The translations under genes and the position numbers were made by a program. Source: Desulfobacterium sp. (GTDB taxonomy: Bacteria; Desulfobacterota; Desulfobacteria; Desulfobacterales; Desulfobacteraceae). Taken from it: DNA of 64,000 bases. This document shows, in pieces, positions 1 to 3,497 of the stretch; the first letter of the stretch is position 1; each line of letters opens with the position of its first letter. The stretch is from assembly GCA_030145245.1 (NCBI GenBank), contig JAQYWC010000048.1:124001-188000 (forward strand), read 5' to 3'. Under the pieces are notes generated by a model. The model did no database searches, was not told where the DNA came from, and worked only from the letters and a program-made list of their open reading frames with translations.

Positions 1-641
1 GGGTGGAAGCCATTGTTGTGGACGGGGGCAGTCAGGACCATACCCGTGAGATCGCGGCCAGGGCCGGCGCAACGGTGGTGGAGGTCGGTGGGGGACGCGC
101 TGCCCAGCAGAATGCCGGGGCAGCCCTTGCCAGGGGACGATGGCTGCTGTTTCTCCATGGCGATACCCTGTTGCCCAAAGGTTACCCGGGGATGGTACAA
201 CGGGCCATGACCTCCCCGGCCACGGTGGCCGGCGCATTTCGGTTCGAGACCGACGATTCCGGTCCCGGAATGCGCCTGATCCAATGGATGACGAATCTTC
301 GGTCTGTTTTTTTACAGCGGCCCTATGGTGACCAGGGGCTGTTTATGGAAAAGAGGGTGTTCGACCAGATGGGGGGATTTGCCTCCCTGCCAATCATGGA
401 GGACTTCGAGCTTGTGGATCGCCTTCGTCGTCTCGGTAAAGTTGTCACGCTTCCCCAGGCTGCCATCACTTCGGCCCGGCGCTGGCAGCAGTTGGGGCGG
501 GTCCGCACCACCCTGATCAACCAGATGATGATCGCGGGCTTCCTTTGGGGCGTGCCGGTCCGGAGATTGGTCCGGCTTTACCGGTCCCATGGAATCGGAA
601 GGTATGAAAAAAAACGATCAAAGGCGTGTAAAACCCTGTGA
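1..641 (+). CDS. TIGR04283-type glycosyltransferase, 5' end outside the window
   Basis: The frame is already open at base 1, so the true start lies upstream and the first strands of the fold are missing. What remains is a GT-2 family (GT-A fold) sugar transferase: VVDGGSQDHT near the visible N-terminus and the metal-binding region LFLHGDT about residues 49-55 in place of the usual DxD. The acceptor region contains GDQGLFM and MEDFELVDRLRR. This arrangement matches the TIGR04283 family (arsenosugar biosynthesis, earlier called rSAM/selenodomain-associated transferase 2). Its usual partners would be upstream and cannot be seen. The function is assigned from family resemblance only. Confidence 0.8.
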   Translation, partial: VEAIVVDGGSQDHTREIAARAGATVVEVGGGRAAQQNAGAALARGRWLLFLHGDTLLPKGYPGMVQRAMTSPATVAGAFRFETDDSGPGMRLIQWMTNLRSVFLQRPYGDQGLFMEKRVFDQMGGFASLPIMEDFELVDRLRRLGKVVTLPQAAITSARRWQQLGRVRTTLINQMMIAGFLWGVPVRRLVRLYRSHGIGRYEKKRSKACKTL

Positions 642-1404: not shown

Positions 1405-1698
1405 GAAATCTCTGTTTCAGAGCCAAAGGAACATTACTCAATTGATGTACTGGATCAATGTGTCGGATATGGTGAGCGCGAACCTGCAACAGCAACCTTT
1501 GAAGTACGAGAAAATGACTTGCTGGTCCTGTCAACGGACGGACTTTCCAAAATGGTGTCCGGGAAAACGTTGTTATCCATATTAAATGCAACCACCCCTA
1601 TTGAGGAAAAGACAGAGGCACTTATCCGGGCAGCACTGGATTCCGGGGGAAAGGACAATATCACCCTTGTGATGGCAAAAATAAACCCCATGGTCTGA
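1405..1698 (+). pseudogene. PP2C-type protein phosphatase, C-terminal remnant
   Basis: The frame from 1405 to the TGA at 1696-1698 encodes a recognisable C-terminal part of a PP2C (Stp1/PrpC-like) serine/threonine phosphatase. It contains ENDLLVLSTDGLSKMV, equivalent to the family's gD.lLLcSDGL, then a helical stretch, then SGGKDNITLVMAKI, equivalent to the family's DNIT motif. The frame is closed by TAG at 1402-1404, there is no ATG or ribosome site before the domain, and the N-terminal metal-binding half is not found in any forward frame of 1093-1402. I see nothing else in 1093-1404. It is most likely a decayed gene; a sequencing frameshift is less likely because the N-terminal motifs are absent. 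Confidence 0.55.
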
Positions 1699-1827: not shown

Positions 1828-2100
1828 ATGGATTTAAAGAAACCGTCGGAACTTATCTGTCATTGTTTTAACTACACGGAAAAGGATATTCAGCAGGACC
1901 TACTGAAAAACGGGTATTCCCGCATCCTACAAAAAATAATAGATGCAAAGGGCGATGGCAGGTGTGATTGTGCAGATAAAAACCCAAAGGGAAGGTGATG
2001 CCTTGGCGATGTCCGCCAGGTGGTGGACAGGGCAGGAAATAAATCATGGGCGAAGAACAGTCCCAAAACGAACCTTTTCCAGAATATTTCCAAGGATTGA
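1828..2100 (+). CDS. BFD-like [2Fe-2S] selenoprotein with in-frame UGA (Sec57)
   Basis: Read conventionally this is a 56-residue BFD-like [2Fe-2S] protein: C11-x-C13 (ICHCF), a helical middle, and C46-x-C48 (CDCADKNPKGR), ending at TGA 1996-1998. The same frame continues with CLGDVRQVVDRA and stops at TGA 2098-2100, giving 90 residues. BFD-like and CopZ-type relatives carry a CCLG-like motif directly after NPxGx, so the TGA sits exactly where the first of those two Cys would be, giving Sec57-Cys58. A hairpin fitting a bacterial SECIS begins 11 bases after the TGA. The ATG has GGGA about 8 bases upstream. It probably handles electrons or a metal in the cytoplasm. It overlaps no gene if the next starts at 2106, and probably shares its transcript. 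The family assignment is strong; Sec insertion is inferred. Confidence 0.72.
2010..2029 (+). promoter_or_regulatory. Bacterial SECIS-like hairpin of the BFD selenoprotein
   Basis: TGTCC 2010-2014 pairs with GGACA 2025-2029, and GCC 2015-2017 with GGT 2022-2024, leaving the loop AGGT 2018-2021. TGCC/GGCA pairing just outside (1999-2002 with 2031-2034) can extend it. The loop lies 19 nt after the UGA, within the usual 16-37 nt, and carries the G residues that SelB recognises; the loop of E. coli fdhF also begins AGGU. Confidence 0.6.
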
Positions 2101-2105
2101 TCAAC

Positions 2106-3497
2106 ATGCCTTTGGAGATTCCTATGATTTCCATTGACGATTTCATCTCTGACAGAAAAAGCTTTGAGCTTGTTCTCGACAATCTCAAGGATGGCATCAT
2201 TGCCCACGATCTGGAGCGAAAAATTATATTTTTCAACAAGGAGGCGGAAAAGATCACCGGGTATTCAAAGGACGTTGTCATGGGCAGGGATTGCCACGAA
2301 GCCTTTGGCACCCCCTTTTGCGGGGAGGGGTGTTCCTTTTGCGGCATGGTGTCGGATTTTAAGGAGCAACTCGAATTTCCGCTGACCATTCTCACAAAGA
2401 CCGGGGATGCCCGGCGGATAGAGATGAGCATCACCGGTATTTTTGACAAGGAGATCTTCAAGGGGGTCATCGCCTCGTTCAGGGAGATGACCGGGCACAC
2501 CGGGGGTGTTGTTGCCAGGGCCGGGGAGCACTTCTCGTTTTCCGGAATCATTGGCAAGGACAGCTCCATGCGCCAGATTTTCCAGCAGATACAGGATGTG
2601 GCCCCTTACGATTATCCCGTCCACATCCATGGCGAGACAGGGACCGGCAAGGAGCGGGTGGCCTCGTCACTTCACCTGGAGAGCAAGCGGGCCCCTGGCG
2701 CCTTTGTACCGGTCAACTGCGGTGCCATTCCGGAGAACCTGGTGGAGAGCGAATTGTTCGGCCATGTCAGGGGGGCGTTTTCAGGGGCAGTTAAGGAGAG
2801 AAGGGGGCGGTTTGAGCTTGCCCATAAAGGCACCCTTTTCCTGGACGAAATAGCGGAGCTTCCCAAGCCCATGCAGGTCAAGTTGTTGCGATTTCTTCAG
2901 GAGGGGGTGCTCGAACCTGTCGGCGGCGAAAAGAGCATCAAGGTGGACGTAAGGATCATCAGCGCCACCAACAAGAACCTTGCCAGGGAGGTGGAAAAGG
3001 GAAAATTCAGGAAAGACCTGTTCTACCGGCTCAACGTGATTCCCATTCACCTTCCTCCCCTGAGAAAGAGACGCAACGACATTCCCCTGCTGATCACCCA
3101 TTTCCTGAGGCAGGCAGAGAAGGAGATCCACGCTCCTGTGCCCGGATTTTCCAAGGACGCCATCCGGGTGATGATGGCCTACCACTGGCCCGGCAATGTC
3201 AGGGAACTCCAGAATACAGTCCAGTTCGCCATTGTCAGGTGCAAATCAAACGAGATCATGCCCATGGACCTGCCCATGGAGCTCCGGTCCGGAGCGAAAA
3301 GCATCCAGGTGTCCCATCCGCCCGGACCAAGGATCAACACGGGCAAGCTCGATCTGGATGCCGTGAAACTCGCCCTGGAACGGACCGGGGGCAACAAGGC
3401 CAAGGCGGCCCGGGATCTGGGGGTGGGAAGGGCCACCCTCTACAGGTTCCTTGAAAAAGACCCCAGGGCGGCTGATTTCGCGGCCTCCCTGAAATAA
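2106..3497 (+). CDS. PAS-domain sigma-54-dependent transcriptional activator
   Basis: This is a bacterial enhancer-binding protein of about 463 residues. From this start, a PAS domain occupies about 15-130 and holds four Cys (63, 72, 76, 79) in the segment RDCHEAFGTPFCGEGCSFC. The AAA+ domain follows, with Walker A GETGTGKE 176-183, the sigma-54 contact loop GAFSGA 223-228 and Walker B GTLFLDEI 242-249. A Fis-type helix-turn-helix (GNKAKAARDLGVGRATLYRF) ends the protein. There is no receiver domain, so the signal is probably sensed by the PAS, perhaps through a thiol or Fe-S centre. ATG 2106 has AAGGA and follows the selenoprotein stop; 2046 (CAGGA) and 2124 (GGAG) are alternatives. Its targets are unknown, but sigma-54 promoters occur elsewhere in the window. 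Confidence 0.92.
   Translation: MPLEIPMISIDDFISDRKSFELVLDNLKDGIIAHDLERKIIFFNKEAEKITGYSKDVVMGRDCHEAFGTPFCGEGCSFCGMVSDFKEQLEFPLTILTKTGDARRIEMSITGIFDKEIFKGVIASFREMTGHTGGVVARAGEHFSFSGIIGKDSSMRQIFQQIQDVAPYDYPVHIHGETGTGKERVASSLHLESKRAPGAFVPVNCGAIPENLVESELFGHVRGAFSGAVKERRGRFELAHKGTLFLDEIAELPKPMQVKLLRFLQEGVLEPVGGEKSIKVDVRIISATNKNLAREVEKGKFRKDLFYRLNVIPIHLPPLRKRRNDIPLLITHFLRQAEKEIHAPVPGFSKDAIRVMMAYHWPGNVRELQNTVQFAIVRCKSNEIMPMDLPMELRSGAKSIQVSHPPGPRINTGKLDLDAVKLALERTGGNKAKAARDLGVGRATLYRFLEKDPRAADFAASLK

Follow-up and report, generated by a model that had tools for sequence, protein, structure and literature searches.

A CopZ-like [2Fe-2S] protein gene in Desulfobacterium sp. with an in-frame UGA very probably read as selenocysteine

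A reading frame near the start of the 64,000-nucleotide stretch of Desulfobacterium sp. DNA analysed here (the window) resembles small [2Fe-2S] proteins, is interrupted by TGA and continues beyond it in the same frame. This raises the question of whether the codon ends a gene or is read as selenocysteine (Sec), and of what kind of protein would then be made. A preliminary description had proposed a Sec-containing [2Fe-2S] protein of BFD-like or copper-chaperone-like kind with a bacterial SECIS-like hairpin, and the comparative evidence given below supports that proposal; we hold with high confidence that the window gene is a selenoprotein gene of the CopZ-like class. The frame, the TGA and the continuation CLGDVRQVVDRA were all located as previously reported (Table 1). 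With TGA read as Sec (U), translation of 1828-2100 gives MDLKKPSELICHCFNYTEKDIQQDLLKNGYSRILQKIIDAKGDGRCDCADKNPKGR-U-CLGDVRQVVDRAGNKSWAKNSPKTNLFQNISKD, in which codon 57 lies in-frame within KNPKGR-U-CLGDV.

Table 1. Features of the Sec gene and its downstream neighbour in the window
Feature	Position	Strand	Remarks
Probable selenoprotein gene, 90 aa, CopZ-like/BFD-like [2Fe-2S] fold	1828..2100	+	Stop codon TGA 2098-2100
UGA very probably read as Sec (residue 57)	1996..1998	+	TGA in 60/60 sequences and in 30/30 best-match class loci
Cys11-x-Cys13, probable ligands 1 and 2 of the cluster	1858..1866	+	Invariant in alignments A1 and A3; aligned to 2HU9; role inferred
Cys46-x-Cys48	1963..1971	+	Invariant in A1 and A3; against 2HU9, Cys48 falls on a CopZ Cys and Cys46 does not
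Cys58, probable fourth cluster ligand	1999..2001	+	Invariant; 2HU9 alignment; role inferred; needs UGA read-through
SECIS-like hairpin, 8 pairs, loop AGGU 2018-2021	2010..2029	+	Fold z, covariation, codon freezing
PAS/sigma-54 activator	2106..3497	+	Start probably at ATG 2106; lies downstream of the Sec gene and is not conserved as its partner

The in-frame UGA and its downstream hairpin

A search with a query containing residue 57 matched 111 of 389 genomes of the class, and all 30 loci returned for the best class matches displayed TGA followed by Cys at codon 57. Because this query held the residue in question, the search was rerun with an alignment ending 5' of the TGA (A1, comprising 23 of the 30 best-match sequences). 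Applied to the named-genome collection and filtered by the pattern C[QDN]C[AS]xKNPK, it yielded 59 loci. Judged by title, most belonged to Desulfobacterales or to relatives among the sulfate reducers, including the complete genome of Desulfosarcina widdelii (L125), and a small number came from elsewhere (for example Ectothiorhodospira, L122, and Negativibacillus, L146). Together with the window gene these formed a set of 60 sequences, 30 of which made up alignment A3. TGA followed by Cys was present in all 60, a count that is confined by the pattern to close relatives and overlaps with the class-wide locus set. The preliminary description had looked to homologues with TGA or TGC at codon 57 as a check, and had regarded the lack of a conserved CLGDV downstream as evidence against Sec; the homologues carried TGA throughout, CLGDV was kept 3' of it, and the downstream D, V, R and V were retained in most of the 60 sequences. 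Comparison of the window gene with its nearest relative (L088, from the same genus) revealed 16 differing codons among the 56 located 5' of the TGA, comprising 13 synonymous and 3 non-synonymous changes, and a single base difference in one of the 13 codons from the TGA onward. In the tail, 11 of 21 codons differed, eight of them non-synonymously, indicating that the region 3' of VVDRA is poorly conserved.

The CC model NF047645 provided a wider sample, matching 40 of 297 genomes of the phylum. The 30 loci returned from these 40 comprised 27 UC forms and three CC forms (L151-L153), two of which scored above the NF047645 cut-off and all of which matched the longer CopZ profile; nine of the remaining ten matches contained one TGA. 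One locus (L059, G137:C6:591000-605000) carried the GxUC gene twice, approximately 0.7 kb apart on opposite strands, with a third copy on another contig of that genome.

Ten stretches departing from the general pattern were also examined: class matches without a stop (G134, G326, G292, G228, G164, G323 and G006), one with TAA (G262), one with both TGA and TAA (G098), and one without a stop from the NF047645 search (G439). Other weak class matches, including G085, G038 and G251, were outside this set. Two stretches look like decayed copies as judged from their sequences, namely L204 (G134), which accompanies a Sec copy but has Arg in place of Sec and is missing several Cys, and L208 (G262), with TAA at the Sec codon and a damaged motif. 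L210 (G323) ended before the Sec codon and L213 (G098) was a cut second copy carrying TGA. The others were CopZ-like CC forms (L205, L206 and L212), distant CC forms (L207 and L211) and an unconvincing relative (L209). These exceptions indicate that Cys forms exist among distant relatives, and no intact Cys version was found in the close clade across the 60 sequences and the ten stretches.

Bacterial SECIS elements are hairpins situated just 3' of the UGA with a G in the apical loop. The window carries such a hairpin, with an AGGU loop, eight pairs and covariation; its stem (2010-2017 with 2022-2029) starts 11 nt 3' of the UGA. The loop had earlier been placed 19 nt downstream, and AGGT is indeed found 19 nt past the TGA, with both fold and covariation in its favour. 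The folding energy was -19.8 kcal/mol (z -3.09), and 2 of 200 shuffles folded equally well. Covariation was assessed in an alignment of 52 of the 60 sequences (A2), which leaves out L088 as a near copy of the window, L146 as divergent, L099, L113, L139 and L140, whose match was one codon short, and L118 and L129, which the motif expression missed. Base pairing was present in 91.3 % of cells compared with 88.5 % in shuffles, a value reached by 0 of 500, and four of the eight pairs displayed changes on both sides (shuffle mean 2.0; reached by 3 of 500). 'Further pair types' in the A2 hairpin did not rise above shuffles, 116 of 500 of which reached the same value. Controls slid along the alignment paired less (35.8 to 68.5 % of cells); the control slid by +3 equalled the hairpin on both-sided change (5 pairs and 13 cells vs 4 and 14) but was below it on pairing and covariation score.

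Codon usage pointed in the same direction. CGC was used for Arg inside the stem in 49 of 50 cases and for Arg just 5' of the UGA in 14 of 48, and the second Val codon was GTG in 53 of 55. This freezing of stem codons, taken with the covariation, indicates that the RNA is constrained in addition to the protein. By eye, the hairpin sequence was absent from L146, where the UGA is present, and from the three CC forms L151-L153; an Rfam search over 1700-2300 returned no match.

These results bear on the simplest alternative, in which TGA would act as a normal stop codon, the protein would finish with NPKGR and the resemblance further downstream would be accidental or a remnant. Under the standard code translation does stop at this TGA, and an apparently decayed relative exists in G262, but the uniform TGA-Cys pair, the largely retained residues 3' of it and the covarying hairpin render this explanation highly improbable.

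The source genome encodes the machinery that Sec insertion would need. All four components scored above their cut-offs: tRNA-Sec (75.7 bits, cut-off 47), SelB (363 bits, cut-off 242), SelA (601 bits, cut-off 268) and SelD (373 bits, cut-off 125), so that the absence of selA, selB and selC, which the preliminary description had named as grounds for rejection, does not apply. The SelD gene has an in-frame TGA of its own (L182, G000:C33), and SelD is therefore probably a selenoprotein too. Reassignment or suppression of TGA to another amino acid might be considered instead, since read-through without a SECIS element would equally keep the frame. This is contradicted by the Sec frame itself and other window frames, such as those at 3-641 and 754-1092, which end at TGA, and by the existence of Sec machinery and a SECIS-like hairpin; we regard it as scarcely credible. 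The reading we favour is that SelB and Sec-tRNA would decode the UGA as Sec by means of the hairpin downstream.

Fold and relationship to catalogued selenoproteins

The best sequence and fold matches of the window protein were to CopZ_Nterm_CC (NF047645) and the N-terminal domain of Archaeoglobus fulgidus CopZ (2HU9). NF047645 matched at 6e-13 (49.2 bits, below the curated cut-off of 100) in its C-terminal part only. The alignment started at position 83 of the 138 in the model, and the window protein is without the CopZ N-terminal part. NF045877 matched at 1.3e-6 (28.4 bits, below the curated cut-off of 190), and Pfam Fer2_BFD at 0.0087 on residues 9-32, under the gathering score. All 23 A1 members matched NF047645 at 0.001 or better, with a NifU match in eight and an NF045877 match in two. 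In a profile search of solved structures 2HU9 ranked first (1.6e-4). The AlphaFold model, in which U was modelled as C, had a pLDDT of 91.9 and a pTM of 0.77, and a fold search again placed 2HU9 at the top (probability 0.98, with a weak E of 0.097), followed at ranks 2-4 by Bfd structures with E of at least 3.3.

The appearance of Bfd at these ranks, together with the Fer2_BFD match, might suggest that the gene encodes Bfd proper, the bacterioferritin-associated ferredoxin, which would release iron from bacterioferritin. Bfd (6E6R, 4E6K) shares a similar small fold, but its match was weaker (E 3.3 and worse), CopZ came first in both solved-structure searches and the Pfam match did not attain its gathering score. 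The second Cys pair of Bfd, spaced CxxC, also differs from that of the window protein. We consider an identity as Bfd very unlikely, and the CopZ N-terminal domain remains the closest model.

The window protein and the CopZ models share the pattern CxC...C...CC, with UC in the former where NF047645 and 2HU9 have CC. In the 2HU9 alignment, Cys11, Cys13, Cys48, Sec57 and Cys58 fall on chain Cys 75, 77, 109, 118 and 119 (counted along the alignment), of which we take 75, 77, 109 and 119 to be the cluster ligands. If these bind the cluster, Sec57 would be a non-ligand adjoining a ligand and Cys46 a spare thiol.

Selenoproteins of this kind are in print. A (2Fe-2S)-binding protein of the copper chaperone CopZ family is given as a selenoprotein in forms 1 and 2 (PMC9312934, 2022), and Table 1 of a later review lists form 1 under cd10141 with the motif GxUC and WP_245779778.1, and form 2 with the motif CU (PMC13188914, 2026). 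The later review credits the CopZ-family selenoprotein to the GOS paper (PMC2398784, 2008), the main text of which mentions neither CopZ, copper chaperone nor 2Fe-2S; the same holds for the main texts of the ISME J 2016 (PMC5029168) and deep-Sep 2025 (PMC12013277) papers. A literature search found no paper joining bacterioferritin-associated ferredoxin or BFD-like with selenoprotein or selenocysteine, indicating that it is as CopZ that this family has been published.

Form 1 and the window gene belong to the same domain class by name and share the same Sec motif (GRUC here), a comparison made by name and motif; nothing was found that sets the window gene apart from form 1 as a different family. 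Form 2 corresponds to the Csac_0668 family 2Fe-2S cluster-binding (seleno)protein (NF045877, motif CU), the C-terminal part of which is homologous to the window protein, the match starting at model position 99 of 161. By comparison with its relatives the window gene is a real selenoprotein gene and a member of the already catalogued CopZ-family selenoproteins. A clade with Sec throughout, a cluster ligand beyond the UGA and a neighbour pattern were not encountered in the passages of PMC9312934 and PMC13188914 drawn on here.

Genomic neighbourhood and the downstream activator

The gene downstream encodes a PAS/sigma-54 activator whose start had been put at 2046; the ATG at that position is CTG in the nearest relative, making ATG 2106 the probable start, five bases past the TGA that ends the Sec frame. 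The four Cys reported in its PAS domain were confirmed, and they are kept in the activator of the nearest relative. This arrangement had prompted the suggestion of a new redox-sensing or metal-sensing pair, in which a selenium-dependent sensor would feed the adjacent activator. The closeness of the two genes and the kept PAS Cys are in keeping with such a pair, but the activator adjoined the Sec gene at just one of the 59 named loci, the same-genus L088, and among 40 further loci only at L048, a second record of the L088 site. A third member of the genus (G169, L065) had its closest activator of this type approximately 2.6 kb away, and sigma-54 activators in the broad sense were present within 6 kb at 3 of 59 case loci, compared with 1 of 20 control regions. 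When the window was searched for sigma-54 promoters, allowing one mismatch to the pattern, no site was detected 5' of either gene; the first 18 kb held a single sigma-54-like site, with one mismatch, inside the activator gene on the opposite strand. Since the two genes adjoin only here and in one close relative, the pair as proposed finds no support, and we judge a sensor feeding the activator very improbable.

No conserved partner was apparent. Clustering of 578 neighbour ORFs, predicted with a simple script and therefore including some spurious ones, gave a commonest cluster present in 7 of 60 loci. Family scans of the neighbours, listing the top 25 families, covered 110 of 269 case ORFs and 110 of 164 control ORFs. 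Soft-metal and thiol genes recurred around the Sec gene (MerA-like, MerT, ArsM, ArsR, ArsP/SaoE-like, P1B ATPase, CDF, MTH895 thioredoxin and TsoB-like). Twelve query families (Mer, Ars, P1B-ATPase, CDF, MTH895 thioredoxin, TsoB-like, MauE/DoxX, DsrE-like and CcdA) were then counted with each query's own locus excluded, and at least one was present within 6 kb at 19 of 59 case loci vs 0 of 20 control regions, a difference that is biased upward because case loci supplied the queries and only 10 genomes supplied the controls. The neighbours are suggestive of metal, metalloid or thiol chemistry.

Several individual neighbours were also recorded. TsoB-like genes, of a rhodanese/DsbD selenoprotein family, accompanied the GxUC gene at L095, L109 and L139, at distances of up to 6 kb. 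The region upstream in the source genome (window 1-641; G000:C35, L147:13469-16642) encodes an arsenosugar-type glycosyltransferase that is a TIGR04282-TIGR04283 fusion, together with a MerA-related FAD oxidoreductase scoring below the MerA cut-off. In window 1447-1698, 83 residues weakly resemble the C-terminal end of SpoIIE/PP2C-type phosphatases (3.9e-5, slightly short of the gathering score); at the corresponding place L088, the nearest relative, encodes a PP2C protein of 254 aa (PP2C_2, 2.5e-16), and the window segment looks like a remnant of a PP2C gene.

Proposed function and implications

The 90-residue product would be a [2Fe-2S] protein of the CopZ N-terminal or BFD-like kind. From the alignment to CopZ and the CopZ structure, Cys11, Cys13, Cys48 and Cys58 probably hold the cluster, which would leave Sec57 and Cys46 free beside it. 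In selenium-deprived cells the chain would end at residue 56, and since this stop precedes the fourth ligand, no cluster protein would be formed. The most likely interpretation is a small [2Fe-2S] protein that takes part in redox chemistry or the handling of metals, and the fourth ligand of which is made only upon Sec insertion. The free residues might act as a selenolate/thiolate pair that either reduces a substrate with electrons from the cluster or binds soft metal or metalloid ions; we put forward this step tentatively. Equally speculative is the wider proposal of a [2Fe-2S] protein that occurs solely in a Sec form within its clade, in which Sec57 and Cys46, next to the ligand Cys58, would constitute a site of redox chemistry or metal reduction through which sulfate reducers handle mercury, arsenic or copper, and cluster assembly would be gated by selenium; we consider it more doubtful than the selenoprotein assignment itself.

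Standard annotation would miss this gene or cut it at residue 56, and the predicted fourth cluster ligand would be lost with the remainder. The genes surrounding the Sec gene in its relatives suggest a soft-metal or thiol chemistry for the protein that can be tested, and the finding of no intact Cys version in close relatives hints at a function that Cys would serve poorly.
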